Source: Polyangiaceae bacterium
GTDB taxonomy: Bacteria > Myxococcota_A > Polyangia > Polyangiales > Polyangiaceae
Direction: 5' to 3'
Length of the DNA stretch: 64,000 nt
NCBI GenBank assembly: GCA_013214025.1
Contig: JABSRN010000140.1
Location: 62,001-126,000, forward strand
This document shows, one piece after another, positions 4,614 through 57,278 of the stretch. The notes beneath the pieces were generated by a model, which was not told the origin of the DNA, searched no databases, and saw nothing but the letters and a program-made list of their open reading frames with translations. The translations under genes and the position numbers were made by a program. The first letter of the stretch is position 1; each line of letters opens with the position of its first letter.

Positions 4614-4790
4614 GTGCCCGATAACCAAGCCCCCACCCTGCAAGCGCTTCACAGCGCCCAGCGTCGCCCTCACCCCCATCACCAGTGGATGCCGGCGATC
4701 CCGCGAGCACCGAACGCAGTTGTTCGGCGTCGTCGGCTTCTGGCTCGAAAGCCTTTGACCGGAGCCACCAGCGCTGGCAAAGGCAGCGTG

Positions 4791-5642
4791 ATGTCCCGCC
4801 GAGCTCCGCTCCTTACGGCCCTCGCCGCAGTCGTATACTCGACCACCGCGAGCGCTCATGGCGGGGATGACCACAGCATCGGGCACGCGGCTCTTCGGAA
4901 TCTTGCGGGCATGGACATCAGCGTTCTGAGCTTTGATCACGGGCGCACGGCCGGCACTCTGACAACGGTCAGCGTCCGCGGGGAGATCGCTATGGGTCGC
5001 TGGGTGGCGGGTGTCTCGCTGCCCTATCATCACCTTGTGCTCAAGGACCGGGACGACATACACGGCGTGGGCGATCCCACCAAACTGGTGAAGTACCAGC
5101 TCATCCGCATGGGCGCCGATGGGCTGAGCCTGCAGATAGGGACACGCGTCACTCTTCCGCTCGGAGCTCAACACGACGGGCTCGGTGCCGGACACTATGA
5201 AGTCAGCCCCTTCGTCTCCGCAATGGGCATGGGTGCGCGACTGTCCTGGCACGGCACACTCGGTCTGAGCGAGTCCATCAGCTCGCACTCTCACGATCCC
5301 TCCGCCACGGGCTCGGAAGAACAGTCCGGTGCAATCAGCAGCTCCCCCGTAACCGCTCACGCCAATCGGGAACTGATGGGGCACCTAGGCGCGACCCTCG
5401 TGCTCGGAGAACACTGGCTCGCCAACGCCATCGTGGAGGGCCGCCAGCCGCTCTCAGACTCCCGCTGGGAGACGAGCGTAGTGCTCATGCCAGAGCTCGG
5501 CTGGGCCAGCCATGGGCGGCAGTCACGCGGGCAAATGCGCACCATTCAGCACGGGTGGTTGGTAACACTGGGGAGCGCCCACATGGTTCTGGGGCAACGC
5601 TTTGACCACCGCGCAAGCTTCGGCATGAGCCGACGATTTTAA
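4791..5642 (+). CDS. Outer-membrane beta-barrel protein (phenol MetA-pathway/transporter-like)
   Basis: A 283-aa protein with a clear signal peptide (cleavage after TTASA). A His-rich mature start (HGGDDHSIGHA) precedes alternating amphipathic strands. The segment GVGDPTKLVKYQL followed by TRVTLPLGAQ resembles the putative outer-membrane 'MetA-pathway of phenol degradation' barrel family. The protein ends in Phe (RRF), as barrels often do. ATG 4791 is chosen because the signal peptide starts there; the open frame begins at 4614 but its upstream part is not protein-like. The His-rich N-terminus could bind metal, which is inference. Confidence 0.65.
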   Translation: MSRRAPLLTALAAVVYSTTASAHGGDDHSIGHAALRNLAGMDISVLSFDHGRTAGTLTTVSVRGEIAMGRWVAGVSLPYHHLVLKDRDDIHGVGDPTKLVKYQLIRMGADGLSLQIGTRVTLPLGAQHDGLGAGHYEVSPFVSAMGMGARLSWHGTLGLSESISSHSHDPSATGSEEQSGAISSSPVTAHANRELMGHLGATLVLGEHWLANAIVEGRQPLSDSRWETSVVLMPELGWASHGRQSRGQMRTIQHGWLVTLGSAHMVLGQRFDHRASFGMSRRF

Positions 5643-5665: not shown

Positions 5666-7459
5666 CTACAGGCGACGCGCAGCGATGGGGATGCTGAACG
5701 AAAACGCGGACGGCTGAGGCCCGAATCTGGTGGAGCGGGCGACCCCCAAGATACAACCGCCGACGGCGGTACCAGCGATGGACCCCGGAATCAGCTGAGC
5801 TCCAGACACACTGCCCGACTTGGTGATATTGAACCGTACGGAGATTCGCGGACGCCCTTCGACACTGGAAGCGTGGCGTTCAAAACAGCCCTGAACGGCC
5901 CCTTGACGCTGCTGAAAGCGTCGAGTGAGAGCTTTGGCGTCAGGCCCTGACGATGCCGCTTGGGTGCTGGCGCCACCCGTTCGGCGAGCAGCAGCAGGCG
6001 CCGAGCCGGCAGCCGTAGCAGGTGCTGAGGCACTCGGCGTAGGAGCGGCTGAAGCTGCGCCTGACCCCCCAGGCGCGGGTACCACGCTGGCTGCTGGAGC
6101 GGCGACGGCCAAGGGAGTGGCTTCCCGCTGTGCGACGACGAGGAAACGGGGAGCGGGTTCGGCCTTTTCCTTGGTGACGACGTACACCACAGCGCTGCCC
6201 GCGATCAACAACGAAGCCAGCGCCACAATTTTTAGTGCCACCGACGCCGCGGCTGCCGTGCTGGGCAGTTGTCCTGCCATACCGACAGTCTGGTCGATGA
6301 TCGGCAAGGCACCGGGGGTACCCGGATCCACAATCAGGCTGTCCGGCTGGGTCACCATGTGGTCGGTGGGCTCGGAGAAAGCGTAGGACGAGTTACTACG
6401 AAGCTCTTGCGCCGCAGGAGCCGATGACAGCGGGTGGTAGCTTCGCCCTCGTCCCTCCTTCTTCTCCTTATCCTCAAACTGGCGCCACGCGGCGTCTCGT
6501 TCTTCCAGAGACTCCACGCCTAGAGCTTCGGCGATGCCGCCCATGAAGTCCCGATGAACAGCTCTCTCCAGCTCTTGTCGAACCTCTTTGTCGGGCTTCG
6601 TGTACTGCGATCGCAGGGCTGTCGCGAACTCTTCAGCAGATTGGTAGCGATCGACCGGATCCTTGGCCAAGGCAATTTGTAGAATGTCCGCGAGTTCCTC
6701 CGAAACATCGGAGCGGACCTCGGACAATCGCGGCGCCTTGCTTTTCATCACACGATTCAGAGTTTCGCTAACGGTCTTAGCGGCGAAAGGGTTCTCCCCG
6801 GTCAGCAGCACGTGCAACGTGACCGCGCAGGAGTACACGTCGCCGCCCGGTTTCGGGCGCGATCCCGAAAAACTCTCCGGGGGCGAGAAGCTCAGTTTGC
6901 CCTTGAAGGCAATGTTCTGAGTCTCATACTCGCCGCTCTCGTCCGTTCGGGCGATGCCGAAATCCAGCAACTTGATGTTCCCCTGGGCATCAAGCAACAC
7001 ATTGCCCGGCGATACATCGCGGTGAACTACCGTAATTTTAGTGCCGTCCGGACGCGTGAAGGTGTGCGCGTAGTGCAGCGCATCCAGTACGTTGGCCATG
7101 ATGTACAGCCCGAAGTGGACTGGCATCCCGCCGATCTCGTCAATCAGGTAGCGCAGCCACTGGCCCAAGTGGTAGCCATGCACGTACTCCAACACCATGG
7201 TGTACGTGCCCTGCTCCTCGCCGAAGTCGACGACAGACACGATGCCCGGGTGGGTCAGATTGGCGAGGATTCGGGCCTCGCGCACAAACATCTTGAGGGT
7301 CTCCTCCTCCTGGACCAAATCCTGACGGATGCGCTTGATCACCACCGGACGCGCAAAACCAGCGGCCCCCTCGGTGCGGCCCAGATAGACGACACCCATG
7401 CCGCCCTTGCCGACGGCTCGTAGAATCCGGTAGCGCCCCAGCACTACCGTGTTCAACAT
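5666..7459 (-). CDS. Membrane Ser/Thr protein kinase with periplasmic TonB/AgmX-like C-terminal domain
   Basis: A 597-aa protein. It is an N-terminal Hanks-type kinase with Gly loop GKGGMG (17-22), catalytic Lys in VVIKR (42), HRDVSPGN (146-153) and DFG (166-168), so it should be active. The 'HRDVSPGN' form is common in myxobacterial kinases. A linker precedes one membrane segment (about 415-437, IVALASLLIAGSAVVYVV). A Pro/Ala-rich periplasmic stalk follows. The last about 85 residues form a TonB-C-like domain of the AgmX/PglI type (RQGAVQGCFERH ... ISVRFNI ... GCILGVARSTRFG). Start 7459 (ATG) lies 28 bp after the upstream FecR gene stop, so it is the third gene of an operon. The domain layout suggests envelope input, cytoplasmic phosphorylation output, or the reverse. 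Confidence 0.85.
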   Translation of the reverse strand: MLNTVVLGRYRILRAVGKGGMGVVYLGRTEGAAGFARPVVIKRIRQDLVQEEETLKMFVREARILANLTHPGIVSVVDFGEEQGTYTMVLEYVHGYHLGQWLRYLIDEIGGMPVHFGLYIMANVLDALHYAHTFTRPDGTKITVVHRDVSPGNVLLDAQGNIKLLDFGIARTDESGEYETQNIAFKGKLSFSPPESFSGSRPKPGGDVYSCAVTLHVLLTGENPFAAKTVSETLNRVMKSKAPRLSEVRSDVSEELADILQIALAKDPVDRYQSAEEFATALRSQYTKPDKEVRQELERAVHRDFMGGIAEALGVESLEERDAAWRQFEDKEKKEGRGRSYHPLSSAPAAQELRSNSSYAFSEPTDHMVTQPDSLIVDPGTPGALPIIDQTVGMAGQLPSTAAAASVALKIVALASLLIAGSAVVYVVTKEKAEPAPRFLVVAQREATPLAVAAPAASVVPAPGGSGAASAAPTPSASAPATAAGSAPAAARRTGGASTQAASSGPDAKALTRRFQQRQGAVQGCFERHASSVEGRPRISVRFNITKSGSVSGAQLIPGSIAGTAVGGCILGVARSTRFGPQPSAFSFSIPIAARRL

Positions 7460-7487
7460 CGGATCTTGTTGTTGTTCCCCCAAAAGC

Positions 7488-9401
7488 CTACTCCGCGGCG
7501 CGTCGCAGGTAGTAATGCACGCCACGGCTCGGATGGGCCAGTCGTATGCCGATCGCCCGCTGATTTGTCGGGGCGGTCGTCTGTCCGGAAAACCGATACT
7601 GGCCGTCCAAAGGCAGGTCGACACCGCCTACGGAGGCACTCCAGCCCGGGGCGCAGGCCCCGGAGACCGTCACCAAATTGCCGGAAGTAAATGTGCCATT
7701 CTTCGGGGTTTTGATGCTGGCGGTGGCGGCAGCGTTGTCAAAACGGATGCTCAGAGATGTCGTTTTCGACGATCTGCCGCCCGACGACCGGAAGGTCAGC
7801 TTGTGGGTTCCCTCCCCCAATGCACCGGGCCGAAAGGAGTGGTTCGGTCGGGAAGTCGACACGGACTTGCTCCCCGTGGGCGACGCAACCGACAAAGTGT
7901 AGCCGCCAGCCTTGGGGGCGTTGGGCCAGAGAACCGACACTCGTGGGAGGTGATTTTGGTACAGGACCGTGTATCGGCGGCCGTCCGTCTCGACCTGGGT
8001 CGGAGGAGCACTCCTCGGTAATCGGCGCTGACCGGAGTCCCGGTACACAGCGATGCTGCCTGAGCCAGAGGTCTCTTTGGCTAGTCCGTCACCCGTAAGA
8101 CATCGAAGAACATAGCTGTACGAGCCACCGGGTACGTAGATGTTCGCTGTCCCCTCGCCCCGAGAAGACGACACCACGCGACCGGCGCGAAGCAGCTGGA
8201 TGACCCCCACCTCTTCGCACTTGCCCACGAAGGACAATCCGACGGACGTCGGCGGCCGCGGATCGTGGATGGCGGCGGAGGCGCCAATACCGAAACGGAT
8301 GTCAGCGTAGGCAGGACCGCGGCCACTGACCTTTACGCTGCCCTTACGCTTCAGCGCAGCACTCTCGCCGCTAGCGAGATCCTGGCTGCCCTCTTCGCTC
8401 TCAAGTCGGACTTCGCCGGCGATGACGCTGATCTTCGTGTCCTTGCGGCGCACAGTAACGTCAGCACGAGCCAACGGCTTGGCGATGATCGACCCGCCCG
8501 GCACCGTAACGCGCACAGTCACTTCCGCACCAGTGAGCGCCAGAGAGCCACTCTGTGCCTCCACCAGTACGCCCGGTGCTGGCGCTACTACGAAATTTCC
8601 GGAGCCGCGCAGCGTGGCCGTCATGCTTCCGTGCTGCAGATCTGCATTCACCCCGCGAGGAAGCTTGAGGGTCGACCCCTCAGGCAACTGATTGGGTCCC
8701 TTCTTCAGGACCTCCCACTTCTTGGAGCCAGGAGCCTTCATGGTAGCCCCCCTTCCGCTGATAGAGGCCGAGACTGGGCCAGTGGGGATCTCTTCTATGA
8801 TCTCCGGCTCCGGTTCGGGCTCCGACTTTAGCTCGGGCACCGGTTCGGGAACTTCAATTTCGATGACCGCATTTCCGATGTCGACGAGAAGCTTTTGCCC
8901 CGCGCCCACTTCCATCGTCTTGCCATCCAGGGTCTCGAAGTTGGCGCGGCCGACACTCACTTCGAAGCGGATCTTGCCGCCCTTGCGGCGGATGTACACC
9001 CGCGAGCCCGCCAGGATGGTCGCCGAACCGATTTCGGTGTCCAACACCAGCCCACTGGCTTTGGTCTCGATCAGAGCCGCACCCATTTCGACGTCCAAGC
9101 TCGGCTGATCGTTGGTGCTACGAAAGCGCACGGTCGTGTTGCTTTCCAGCATCGCGGTCGCGCCATCGTCCAATTCGAGCTCGGCACTGGACTCCTTGCC
9201 CGTGCTGACGCCATCATCAAATTTAAATTTGGCAGAAACGGTAGCCGCTTCCCAATCGCCGATAGATGCCGCAAAATCCCGCTGCACGGTGCCGTTCACA
9301 CCGATCAGCACTGCCAGAGAGTCACCGCTACAGCCACCACGGCACGAGAACGCGCCGAACATGATGAGCACGCCGGCGAATCTCAAAAACCAGCGGGTCA
9401 T
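7488..9401 (-). CDS. Lipoprotein with two FecR-like domains
   Basis: A 637-aa protein. The N-terminus MTRWFLRFAGVLIMFGAFSC ends in a plausible lipobox. The first FecR-type domain (about 30-170) has the characteristic order of a glycine-rich strand, LDDGATAMLESNTTVRF, and the LDTEIGSATILAGSRVYIRR segment. A Glu/Pro-rich linker (about 190-215) separates it from a second FecR-like region (about 235-350, ending SEEGSQDLASGESAALKRKG). The C-terminus is Ser/Gly-rich with Ig-like strands. The start overlaps the upstream barrel gene by 4 bp (ATGA), which indicates translational coupling. Classical FecR proteins relay TonB-receptor signals to ECF sigma factors. None is nearby here, and the next gene encodes a kinase. 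Confidence 0.75.
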   Translation of the reverse strand: MTRWFLRFAGVLIMFGAFSCRGGCSGDSLAVLIGVNGTVQRDFAASIGDWEAATVSAKFKFDDGVSTGKESSAELELDDGATAMLESNTTVRFRSTNDQPSLDVEMGAALIETKASGLVLDTEIGSATILAGSRVYIRRKGGKIRFEVSVGRANFETLDGKTMEVGAGQKLLVDIGNAVIEIEVPEPVPELKSEPEPEPEIIEEIPTGPVSASISGRGATMKAPGSKKWEVLKKGPNQLPEGSTLKLPRGVNADLQHGSMTATLRGSGNFVVAPAPGVLVEAQSGSLALTGAEVTVRVTVPGGSIIAKPLARADVTVRRKDTKISVIAGEVRLESEEGSQDLASGESAALKRKGSVKVSGRGPAYADIRFGIGASAAIHDPRPPTSVGLSFVGKCEEVGVIQLLRAGRVVSSSRGEGTANIYVPGGSYSYVLRCLTGDGLAKETSGSGSIAVYRDSGQRRLPRSAPPTQVETDGRRYTVLYQNHLPRVSVLWPNAPKAGGYTLSVASPTGSKSVSTSRPNHSFRPGALGEGTHKLTFRSSGGRSSKTTSLSIRFDNAAATASIKTPKNGTFTSGNLVTVSGACAPGWSASVGGVDLPLDGQYRFSGQTTAPTNQRAIGIRLAHPSRGVHYYLRRAAE

Positions 9402-10933
9402 TTGCCCCCGCGCAGATCGACGTTGAGAACAGTGACGCCGTTCTCTTCGACCCTCACTTTGCGTTTCTGAGACTTGTAGCCAGCCGCCTCGACGGACACC
9501 TCGTAGCTACCGGGTTCGACACCCACGCGGAAGTGACCGTCCTTGCCAGCCTGAACGGTCGCCACCGCATCGCCGCCCTCCTTGGACAGAATCACAATGG
9601 TCGCTGCGATGCCGCGACCACGAAACGACCGAACCAGACCGCGAACCTGACCGGGCGGGATCGCCGGCTCCATCTGAATCTTGGTTTGGAGGGCCTTGCC
9701 CTTCTCCAAGCTCACGTCGATCGACTGAGAGACGAAGGACTCAGCACTCACCTGGAGGGTCGCCTTACCAAGGGGTACACCTTCTGCTCTCAGAGCTCCG
9801 CCTTCGCCCGCCTTCAGGGTTATCTTCTTGTCGCCTTGCACAAGCACGACCGTGGCACCTGGGATGGTCGCGCCATTCGAATCGACAACGCTCACCTTCG
9901 CAGAGCTAGTCGGGGTCGCTGCGGCTGCCGGAGCCTCCGTTTCTTCCGGCTTCTCTTCCACCGGCTTCTCTTCTTCCGTGTCGGTGGTGGAAGCAGTGGG
10001 AGCAGCCGGGCCGTAACGCAATCCCAGCCATACCGATGATCGAGGCTCAACGGGAATCACCACATCCGTCGGAAGAAGCGCGGGCCGATCGCTCAGCGTC
10101 ACATCCACGAATAACTCTCCAGAGAGCGTATCCGAAAAGGCATGCCGAACGCCTGCGCCCACCCGCATGGGCGACTGCATCATGTCAGGCGCGCCATCTC
10201 CCACTAGAAGATCGGCGCTCAGCTCGGCGAGGTATTCGGTCTTGCCGGAGCGGTAAGACATGGCAATGCCAGCCAGTACCGCGTCGACCTCGCTCAGGCC
10301 CAAGGCGAGCCGGTCAGAATCACTCAGGCGCTCGATGTCATGCATGGCGGCCGCGCTATTGTCCAGGCGATAGCCGCCCCGGGCCGCCAACGTCAGAGAG
10401 CCGCTTGTGTGGCTTAGCAACAACGACATACTGGGCGTCAGCGCATCGACGATTAACGACGGCGCTTCGCCTCCCGGCATCATGAGGTCCATGTCCACTC
10501 CGAAGGACCAAGGGCTCGCTGCCGTCGGTGCCGTGTCCGTCGCTAACCAACGCACCATCACCGTAGGATCTCCGACCAAACCGCTGTCGCCTTCGGGGTG
10601 TTTGTCGTAACGCCCCGATAAATTTCCCCCAAACAGAAATGCGGGCGCTGGCGAGAGCACAGCCGCGAGCTTGCCCATCAGTCGGTGGTGAGTGCCGTCA
10701 GCATCGGACTGCGCCTCGGTGTATGCGTAGCCTCCGCTGCCCGCTACTCGCACCCCCGAAGGAACCGGAGTGGGCACGCCAACACGAAAAACGCCGGGCA
10801 TTGCTGAACCCGAATCTCCAACCCCCTGAGCGAGTGCGCCTGAAGGTACGCACAGCACTGCCATCACCACAGCAGCCGACACAGCTTGTTCTGCCCGTCT
10901 CGGAAATCTAGGAAAGCCGAAGAATCCCACCAA
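9398..10933 (-). CDS. Outer-membrane barrel with two carboxypeptidase-regulatory-like (PEGA-like) domains
   Basis: A 511-aa protein. A signal peptide ends near GALAQG. Residues about 40-300 alternate in the way of an outer-membrane barrel (RVAGSGGYAYTEAQ, repeated W/F-ended strands). A Glu/Pro/Ala linker follows (about 305-345). Two beta-sandwich repeats complete the protein: KVSVVDSNGATIPGATVVLV and VRGLVRSFRGRGIAATIVIL, the latter with PGSYEVSVEAAGY, typical of carboxypeptidase-regulatory-like or PEGA-like modules. It is the first intact gene of the barrel-FecR-kinase operon and overlaps the second by 4 bp. It probably acts as the surface or outer-membrane component; ligand unknown. Confidence 0.7.
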   Translation of the reverse strand: MVGFFGFPRFPRRAEQAVSAAVVMAVLCVPSGALAQGVGDSGSAMPGVFRVGVPTPVPSGVRVAGSGGYAYTEAQSDADGTHHRLMGKLAAVLSPAPAFLFGGNLSGRYDKHPEGDSGLVGDPTVMVRWLATDTAPTAASPWSFGVDMDLMMPGGEAPSLIVDALTPSMSLLLSHTSGSLTLAARGGYRLDNSAAAMHDIERLSDSDRLALGLSEVDAVLAGIAMSYRSGKTEYLAELSADLLVGDGAPDMMQSPMRVGAGVRHAFSDTLSGELFVDVTLSDRPALLPTDVVIPVEPRSSVWLGLRYGPAAPTASTTDTEEEKPVEEKPEETEAPAAAATPTSSAKVSVVDSNGATIPGATVVLVQGDKKITLKAGEGGALRAEGVPLGKATLQVSAESFVSQSIDVSLEKGKALQTKIQMEPAIPPGQVRGLVRSFRGRGIAATIVILSKEGGDAVATVQAGKDGHFRVGVEPGSYEVSVEAAGYKSQKRKVRVEENGVTVLNVDLRGGK

Positions 10934-54955: not shown

Positions 54956-56950
54956 CTAACCGCCCGGTGAGAACATAATCGGATACACAACGGTCACGAT
55001 TCCACCCTCGGGCGGTGGGAAGCTCAGACCATAGTATGCCCGAACGACACACGATACGACGCCTGAATCCGGGATATCCGAACCACCGTTGCCGACGTTC
55101 GAGACTGCACCGTTTCGCCCAATAACGAAACGAACCGCCACGCGACCTTGAAGGTTCGGGTTCTTCTGTAGACCCTGCTCGTAGCAGAGGCGAAAACGGC
55201 CGTAGTTCTGACGAACGATTCGCTGAATGACCTCTTTGGGCAGTCGACCACTGACTTGAGTCGCACCCATGCGTACGCGGGGTACCTTCGTTTTGTGACC
55301 GCCTCCAAGACGGCCATGTCCGCTACCAAAGCCCTGACCGGTTCCGGTTCCGGCGCCGTGCCCGAAAGTACCGATCGAACCGAGACCGATGCCTTCACCA
55401 CGACCACCACCACCCTCGCCGATGCCGGAGAGTCCCAGACCGCCGCCGCCATATGCGTCGCCGACGTCGTCGCCCCACATGTTACCGTTGAAGCTTTCGA
55501 GGTTGGGATCGGGGTCAGCCCAATCGATTACGGGTGCATTGGGATCTCCCGCCGCACCAGTATTCAACAAACCGATGATGCCGAATTCCATCGCGTCGCG
55601 GAGTGCCTCTGCACGAGAAGTATTCTGATACCGCTTATTGGTATCTTTACTCTCCTCCTTGCCCATGGCTCCTTCTTCGTCTTTGTGCTGGTCACCGGTG
55701 CCACCTGAAGTGTCGACCGCGTCGTCATCAGCTTCCTGCTCTTCTTCCTCTTCTTCTTTTTCAGCAAGAGCGTCGAGGTACTGCTGGATCAGATACATCT
55801 GATCCTTATCGAAGCCTTCATCGTCGAGCAGCCCCAAGGGAGGAGTGAAGTACGCCATGGCGAGAATGAGCCCGCCCACCGCCGACATGGACATTCCGAA
55901 GTAAGCGAGAATCGTCCAATCGATCCCCGATGCCACTCCGTGAGCCACGGGCTTGCCGGCATTGACCGCGCCAACCATGAACACCATGTCACCGAGTTCG
56001 ATCCTAGCCTTGCCACCCGATGGCAGCGCTATCTGATGAGCACCGCTCAACTCCGCGCAAGGCTGTGCTTTCTGTCGAGCTTCATCCAAGGTCATGCGCG
56101 GTTGCCCTGGCAATTCAATGTGGCCGCTAGCGCCAGCCGGAATCACAACCGAGAGGCTACCGACATCTGCCACCACAACCGGCATCCGAGTCGTCCCCAA
56201 AATCGTAGGCGGCATGAGGAAATCGCACTTCAGATCCTTGCCGTTGTCCTCACCGACGTAGAAATTACGCGGAGGGCTGAGATGCGAAACGTGAATCACA
56301 TTCACGCCCCAAAGCACCATGATCTCCACGGCGGCATCCGCAGTCTCCACCTCAGCCAAGCTGACGTCCGGGCCACTCTTTACGAGGGTGTAGGTATAGG
56401 TCCCGGGAGCGGCATCGTCCGGAACATCGTAGACGGCGTCGCGCGCCGCGACGGCAGCACCGGCACCGAAGGGATTCGCGCCGAGGCTCCCCACGCCAGG
56501 ACTGGCATCTGCGAAGGGGTTGGCTTGGCCGGAGCTAGCGTCCGCGAAGGGGTTGGCTGCTGCAGCCCCGGCCTTCGCGAATGGGTTGGAAGCCGGCGGG
56601 GCTGGTTCAGCAGGCGCTTCTTGCGCCGGCGCGGCGACCCCCTCGGCTTCGGCTTTCTCCAACATTATCTGGACGCCGCCGACTTCGATCTTGTCGCCGA
56701 TGCTCAGCTTGCACTTGTTCACCTTTTCGCCATTGACGATGGTGCCCGGATCATTTCCTAGGTCGATCAACGTAACGTCGTCCGGCCCGGCCACCTCGAT
56801 GACAGCGTGCATGCGGGAAGCCGCCTCGTCGTCCACCTGAAGATGACTCTTGGGATCTTTGCCTACCTTGATGATGTCGTGAGCGAGAGTCTCTCGACCT
56901 AGGAGCTCGTCTCCTCGGTAAACAGCGAAAGTAAGTACCGCTTTAGCCAT
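54956..56950 (-). CDS. gltG: FHA-TM-TonB-like protein, GltG/PglI-like
   Basis: A 664-aa protein from ATG 56950. The N-terminal FHA domain (about 15-95: KVGKDPKSHLQVDDEAASRM, then GTIVNGEKV) is followed by four NPF motifs (NPFAKAG, NPFADAS twice, NPFGAG; about 120-175), a beta-rich cytoplasmic region and one TM helix (about 390-410, FGMSMSAVGGLILAMAYF). The periplasmic part has a Glu-rich coil (EKEEEEEEQEADDD) and a Gly-rich stretch. The AgmX/PglI TonB-like domain ends it (VIQRIVRQNYGRFRLCYEQG, GRVAVRFVIG). GltG of M. xanthus has this FHA-TM-TonB-like plan and links cytoplasmic and envelope parts of the gliding motor. The frame extends upstream to 57139, but GAATCG and the FHA start favour 56950. 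Confidence 0.8.
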   Translation of the reverse strand: MAKAVLTFAVYRGDELLGRETLAHDIIKVGKDPKSHLQVDDEAASRMHAVIEVAGPDDVTLIDLGNDPGTIVNGEKVNKCKLSIGDKIEVGGVQIMLEKAEAEGVAAPAQEAPAEPAPPASNPFAKAGAAAANPFADASSGQANPFADASPGVGSLGANPFGAGAAVAARDAVYDVPDDAAPGTYTYTLVKSGPDVSLAEVETADAAVEIMVLWGVNVIHVSHLSPPRNFYVGEDNGKDLKCDFLMPPTILGTTRMPVVVADVGSLSVVIPAGASGHIELPGQPRMTLDEARQKAQPCAELSGAHQIALPSGGKARIELGDMVFMVGAVNAGKPVAHGVASGIDWTILAYFGMSMSAVGGLILAMAYFTPPLGLLDDEGFDKDQMYLIQQYLDALAEKEEEEEEQEADDDAVDTSGGTGDQHKDEEGAMGKEESKDTNKRYQNTSRAEALRDAMEFGIIGLLNTGAAGDPNAPVIDWADPDPNLESFNGNMWGDDVGDAYGGGGLGLSGIGEGGGGRGEGIGLGSIGTFGHGAGTGTGQGFGSGHGRLGGGHKTKVPRVRMGATQVSGRLPKEVIQRIVRQNYGRFRLCYEQGLQKNPNLQGRVAVRFVIGRNGAVSNVGNGGSDIPDSGVVSCVVRAYYGLSFPPPEGGIVTVVYPIMFSPGG

Positions 56951-57026
56951 ATCGTTCGATTCCTGACGGGCCGTTTCGACCCTCTTGGGCTGGGCGCATC
57001 GCTTGATGGATGCGACTGGAGTTTTC

Positions 57027-57278
57027 TTAGAGGTTCTCGACGGACTTGAGCATTTCGGGAACGAAAGACGTCCTCGGCCGAATGAGAGTTGTGCGTGCCG
57101 CCTTCGGGCGAACGCGAATGGTTGCGTCGTTGGGGCCAAAGCCGCCGGCAGCTAGCGGATCATCGTCAAACTCGTAACCATAGCCGTCGCCTTTTTCGTC
57201 CTCGGCGTGGGCCAAACCACTCAGCATAGCGATGCTCAACACGACCAAACCCGATACGAAATATTTAGACCGTTTCAT
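57027..57278 (-). CDS. Small exported protein in the gltF position
   Basis: An 83-aa protein with a signal peptide (MKRSKYFVSGLVVLSIAML, cleavage after LAHA). The mature peptide is about 60 residues: acidic (EFDDDPLAAGGFGPNDA), then Arg/Thr-rich (VRPKAARTTLIRPRTSFVPE), ending MLKSVENL. The strong ribosome site GAGGAGG lies 8 bases upstream. It heads the downstream half of the locus, 76 bp before the gltG-like gene. In Myxococcus the gene between gltE and gltG is gltF. I assign position, not proven homology. Confidence 0.65.
   Translation of the reverse strand: MKRSKYFVSGLVVLSIAMLSGLAHAEDEKGDGYGYEFDDDPLAAGGFGPNDATIRVRPKAARTTLIRPRTSFVPEMLKSVENL

Follow-up and report, generated by a model that had tools for sequence, protein, structure and literature searches.

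A conserved gene trio of myxobacteria encoding an outer-membrane barrel, a FecR lipoprotein and a Ser/Thr kinase suggests a route from the cell surface to an intracellular kinase

We analyzed a stretch of 64,000 nucleotides (hereafter the window; contig C47:62001-126000) from a 5.77-Mb genome of the Myxococcota, in which three adjoining genes encode a barrel protein, a FecR lipoprotein and a membrane-bound Ser/Thr kinase. These form a conserved module that is inherited together in one myxobacterial class. Judged from its sequences, the trio suggests a previously undescribed route by which the state of the cell surface is relayed to an intracellular kinase. With a probability of about 0.55, we consider it to be a trans-envelope signalling module, in which the surface state of the barrel-lipoprotein pair switches the kinase.

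The genes lie on the minus strand in the order barrel, FecR lipoprotein, kinase (Table 1). An earlier note on this DNA had described them as coupled by a 4-bp overlap and a spacing of 28 bp; all three open reading frames were found and both junctions hold, the first as an ATGA overlap and the second when the kinase is taken to start at ATG 7459. Aligned relatives of the kinase start at the equivalent site, and the longer reading from GTG 7624 is mechanical and was discarded. The start of the barrel gene is ambiguous (TTG 10933, GTG 10930 or later). Homologues of all three genes in other genomes align over their full length with 33 to 45% identity, and because the trio is conserved in relatives, its occurrence by chance is excluded. 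A promoter scan at the trio found nothing. Convergent with the kinase gene, with 24 bp between the ends, lies a gene at 4614-5642 (+), the product of which weakly matches the LIC11086 outer-membrane transporter model (18.6 bits against a cut-off of 350).

Table 1. Coordinates of the trio genes and of the kinase tail within the window
Feature	Position	Strand	Basis or remark
Barrel gene	9398..10933	-	CarboxypepD_reg by Pfam, 12-strand barrel by AlphaFold, N-terminal signal sequence
FecR lipoprotein gene	7488..9401	-	Pfam FecR E 6e-8, lipobox, AlphaFold model
Ser/Thr protein kinase gene	5666..7459	-	Pkinase E 7e-40, one TM, periplasmic tail
Kinase periplasmic tail (AgmX/PglI/TonB_C-like)	5669..5935	-	Proposed coupling element

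The same note had spoken of a barrel with carboxypeptidase-like modules, a double-FecR lipoprotein and a kinase with a periplasmic TonB-like domain, and each description is supported by our analysis. In the barrel protein, Pfam reports CarboxypepD_reg in two stretches (E 4e-24) and nothing else, while the AlphaFold model (mean pLDDT 79.8) places a 12-stranded barrel N-terminal to these stretches, which correspond to two CarboxypepD_reg/PEGA-like β-sandwich domains. The barrel model matches FapF, NanC and COG4313 channels in Foldseek, and no plug or STN domain was found by Pfam, in the AlphaFold model or by Foldseek. According to these predictions, the protein is an outer-membrane β-barrel and not a TonB-dependent receptor.

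The lipoprotein carries the lipobox AFSC with Cys20. Pfam detects a single FecR domain above cut-off (residues 65-153), and its AlphaFold model (pLDDT 87.4) displays two successive FecR folds that share their strand pattern (residues 30-181 and 210-360), and then three Ig-like sandwich domains. In fold, the FecR part corresponds to 4m0n/4m0h, a solved protein of the FecR family. The second FecR domain is absent in 5 of the 12 proteins of our first alignment and is thus a variable part; the C-terminal region (residues about 366-637), with a mean column identity of 53%, is the best-conserved part of the family and contains Cys395 and Cys434 among the invariant residues. Neither an anti-sigma Pfam domain nor a TM segment was found in the lipoprotein of the window. 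Loci L034 and L035 encode, in place of the lipoprotein, a TM-anchored form with a short cytoplasmic N-terminus in the alignment, hence outer-membrane anchoring is not universal.

The third protein is a predicted Hanks-type Ser/Thr kinase with all catalytic residues present, as K42, D148, N153 and D166 are invariant across 11 aligned trio kinases. Its cytoplasmic catalytic domain is followed by one TM segment at about residues 403-429 (hydropathy peak 402-429), an Ala/Pro-rich low-complexity linker and an AgmX/TonB-like tail. The model nearest to this tail is NF033768 (AgmX/PglI C-terminal), to which the tail of the window scores 35.3 bits against a curated cut-off of 40 and which is matched by 17 of 17 aligned tails at E 0.1 or better (best 2.5e-10). 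The tonB_Cterm model is matched by 15 of the 17, and matches in the PDB are to TonB only and weak (best E 0.017). Two cysteines, invariant in all 17 tails, presumably form a disulfide. By comparison of coordinates, the about 95 Pkinase places and 19 tail-family places in the window's genome coincide only in the trio kinase. The genome's best NF033768 match (90.2 bits) is another protein with an AgmX/PglI-type C-terminal domain, encoded in the window at 54956-57139 (-).

A check across Myxococcota genomes for conserved triples and for co-occurrence of their parts had been proposed in the earlier note, and both were found. We assembled 48 loci encoding the C-terminal domain of the lipoprotein, the window included, and took locus counts from HMM searches of all open reading frames, because gene positions in GC-rich flanks are unreliable with a simple gene caller. 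All 48 fall in the window's class. The kinase is adjacent in 42 of them, two of which are truncated at contig ends; 35 have an adjacent barrel and 32 have both. Gene order is mostly barrel-FecR-kinase, with kinase-barrel-FecR in five loci (L094, L095 and L100-L102). When the gene-called flanks were clustered, the three trio families appeared in 26 to 36 loci and any other family in at most 6, with the proviso that this clustering relies on the simple gene caller and may miss families. About a quarter of the loci hold lipoprotein and kinase without a barrel; therefore, the barrel is not essential for the lipoprotein-kinase pair. Conversely, L106 and L099, the latter on a short contig, have barrel and lipoprotein with no kinase found there, and in L036 the lipoprotein gene is solitary. 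By eye, a gene for an ABC-2-like permease adjoins the barrel gene in L106:6047-10826 and in L099:2-4373.

The same distribution emerged at other scales. Among 98 genomes of the family, the lipoprotein occurs in 11 (one of which, G050, was counted through the generic FecR domain alone), with barrel and kinase nearly always adjoining. Searches with the C-terminal domain in 377 genomes of the phylum and 183 of the order gave strong matches only inside the window's class; matches outside it were short, Ig-like and at most 42 bits, and were left out of the counts. A peptide-pattern scan of 84,980 species returned 17 loci, every one with a myxobacterial or deltaproteobacterial title; the titles name Polyangiaceae, Sandaracinaceae, Sorangiineae and Kofleriaceae.

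Tail and lipoprotein are tightly associated. With a profile of the tail only and a threshold of 60 bits or more for the trio type, such tails were found in all 29 lipoprotein-bearing genomes of the 183 order genomes and in a single other one (Fisher p about 7e-33, with shared ancestry left in). In this other genome (G048), the tail lies at a contig edge and a barrel gene is on the same 3.4-kb contig. The next-best tail, below threshold with 52.8 bits, has no kinase domain. As the profile was built from trio members, high scores of the trio are expected, and it is the absence of such tails elsewhere that is informative. At the level of the class, a trio-type tail is missing from G370 and G434, which break the rule, and G405 has its tail and lipoprotein on different contigs. 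Distances between lipoproteins correlate with those between tails (r 0.45, reached in 0 of 2000 permutations), a correlation that linkage alone would give.

Comparison of the kinases suggests that the tail is the linking part. The kinase domains of five loci (L093, L113, L114, L116 and L117) score only 111 to 159 bits with the trio model, compared with 228 to 473 for the others, and in the window's genome that of L114 finds 59 other kinases at E below 1e-25, the trio kinase not being among them. When 20 other kinases were included in a tree, the five grouped as a single clade (SH-aLRT 99), which sits among other kinases and apart from the main trio clade, whereas their lipoproteins nest inside the trio lipoprotein family. 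Four of the five loci have kept the tail (73 to 82 bits), and L113 is cut by the contig end. From these phylogenies and profile scores, we conclude that the catalytic domain was replaced in one clade while tail, lipoprotein and barrel were retained. As the tail outlasted this exchange, the simplest reading is that it is probably the tail, rather than the catalytic part, that couples the module together. The five loci of the order kinase-barrel-FecR may represent a further kinase lineage, because a non-trio kinase falls among them in the tree (support 94, with only 20 kinases sampled).

Regarding the output, the earlier note had held that no ECF sigma factor is present, that known FecR systems signal to such a factor and that the kinase takes its place. 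Indeed, the window contains no ECF-like open reading frame, and such frames occur in the flanks of 3 of the 48 loci, L034 and L104 having ECF-like genes close to the module. The general statement on known systems is too narrow, as FecR proteins have been reported beside CHASE2 adenylate cyclases (PMC9239204) and beside the c-di-GMP phosphodiesterase PmxA (PMC8844925). L108:5056-6826 lends some support to the idea of a kinase standing in for a sigma factor; there, an ECF sigma gene is directly followed by the gene of a TM protein, the C-terminal half of which is homologous to the C-terminus of the trio lipoprotein (hhalign 99.2%; no Pfam FecR match; long branch in the tree). An ECF sigma gene beside FecR elsewhere in the genome had been named as counter-evidence, and such an apparently canonical-type pair, with overlapping genes for an ECF sigma factor and a FecR-domain protein, exists on contig C135 of the window's genome (L024:316-2236). 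We rejected this FecR protein as a trio relative (weak tail match of 18.5 bits; hhalign probabilities of 6% with the tail and 4% with the lipoprotein), and since it has no detectable relation with the trio lipoprotein beyond the FecR domain, the pair does not refute the kinase idea. Large proteins combining FecR, VIT and VWA domains, with no sigma factor, are encoded at L037:7386-11414 and at L025:3797-8002 (contig C121), the latter additionally carrying TPR.

Three-gene units at L122:2718-8114 and L124:3671-8860 encode a FecR- or Ig-type lipoprotein and, after it, a hybrid histidine kinase with HAMP, HisKA, HATPase and receiver domains. Both units have Ig-like domains in common with the trio lipoprotein, at weaker similarity (hhalign 98% over 131 columns for L124). 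We did not count these units as trio members; the upstream gene of L124 is unrelated to the barrel, and both are distant cousins only, possibly representing a parallel envelope-sensing design. Taken with L108, these distant relatives suggest that periplasmic parts of one kinship can be linked to more than one type of output.

The proposed relay works like FecA-FecR-FecI, with an outer-membrane barrel, a FecR-fold periplasmic part and an inner-membrane step that changes a cytoplasmic output, and is not a member of that system. The trio barrel has 12 strands and no domains of TonB-dependent receptors, whereas the canonical one has 22 strands, a plug and a signalling domain; the trio FecR is a lipoprotein without an anti-sigma domain, whereas canonical FecR resides in the inner membrane with an N-terminal anti-sigma domain; and the trio output is a predicted Ser/Thr kinase instead of a sigma factor. 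Of four canonical FecAIR features, the FecR periplasmic fold is present, while ECF linkage, an anti-sigma FecR and a TonB-dependent receptor are absent. GltG and GltJ (AgmX) of the Myxococcus Agl-Glt gliding machinery likewise combine a single TM, a periplasmic linker and a TonBC/AgmX-type C-terminal domain, and their TonBC motifs are proposed to reach outer-membrane barrel proteins (PMC5349195). Here, however, the cytoplasmic part is a kinase, the GltG model is matched with 19.1 bits against a cut-off of 650, no motor genes recur beside the module and the lipoprotein is of the FecR type. The FecR systems with CHASE2 cyclases or PmxA (PMC9239204, PMC8844925) also link a FecR envelope protein to a non-sigma signalling enzyme, yet this enzyme is a different one, no TonB-like tail is reported and the partners are LysM or TPR proteins, not a CarboxypepD_reg barrel. 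PASTA kinases of the PknB/Stk1 type are Hanks-type kinases with one TM and an extracytoplasmic sensor region too; that of the trio is a TonB-like tail, not PASTA (NF033483 217.6 against a cut-off of 450). Our search for FecR with kinases in the literature, covering few subscription journals, found no description of a barrel-FecR-kinase trio. Thus, the link of FecR to non-sigma enzymes is already known, and the kinase trio is new as far as the literature was searched.

In the mechanism we propose, the barrel would sit in the outer membrane with its two β-sandwich domains in the periplasm, and the FecR lipoprotein, acting as adaptor or sensor, would be anchored nearby, probably in the outer membrane as well. 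The inner-membrane kinase would reach across the periplasm via its TonB-like tail on the flexible linker, and the tail would contact the lipoprotein and, where present, the periplasmic domains of the barrel. A change at the surface would then alter the state of barrel and lipoprotein and, through it, kinase activity in the cytoplasm. In this scheme, we infer the contact of the tail with lipoprotein and barrel, the outer-membrane placement of the lipoprotein, the outside-to-inside direction and the signal. A wider and more tentative reading, which we hold to be possible though somewhat doubtful, is that a TonB-type domain, once an energy transducer, has come to serve receptor kinases as their sensor tail, so that outer membrane and kinase are directly connected, and that the conserved periplasmic unit of barrel, FecR lipoprotein and tail can take different cytoplasmic outputs. 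These would comprise no fewer than two unrelated lineages of kinases and, where distant lipoprotein relatives are concerned, a hybrid histidine kinase or an ECF sigma factor.

The main rival reverses the direction: instead of reading the surface, the kinase would use its tail to grip and control an outer-membrane barrel complex (a channel, adhesin or export pore), FecR being structural. In GltG/GltJ and TonB, such tails exert an effect on partners in the outer membrane and do not sense them (PMC5349195), and the barrel is similar to those of export or transport (FapF, NanC, COG4313). We nevertheless regard such inside-out control as unlikely: no other gene family, hence no energising gene of the ExbBD or TolQR type, recurs widely beside the module, and the loci with FecR and kinase but no barrel would leave the tail nothing to act on. 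Those incomplete loci, along with the loci lacking a kinase and the varying gene order (kinase first in the five loci named above), rather suit genes linked without contact of their products, that is, a co-transcribed envelope operon in which barrel and lipoprotein serve structure or transport and the kinase reacts on its own, for instance to peptidoglycan or, via a disulfide in the tail, to redox state. That the tail persisted when the catalytic domain was exchanged, and that it co-occurs near-perfectly with the lipoprotein, both point to contact via the tail and make this loose association quite improbable in our view. A variant of canonical cell-surface signalling, with a distant ECF sigma factor as output and the kinase as accessory, could draw on the sigma gene preceding the lipoprotein relative in L108 and on the ECF-like genes in L034 and L104. 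We give it very little credence: the window is free of ECF genes and 45 of the 48 loci have none detected nearby, the trio lipoprotein has neither an anti-sigma domain nor a TM, and the barrel is not a TonB-dependent receptor.

To our knowledge, myxobacteria possess very many Ser/Thr kinases, and the inputs of most of these are unknown. If the trio relays the surface state to the kinase as we propose, it offers one kinase family a specific candidate route by which input could cross the entire envelope. The natural series of domain replacements, with the same tail on different catalytic domains, makes the coupling step testable. Such a relay would carry FecR-type signalling beyond sigma factors to protein kinases.
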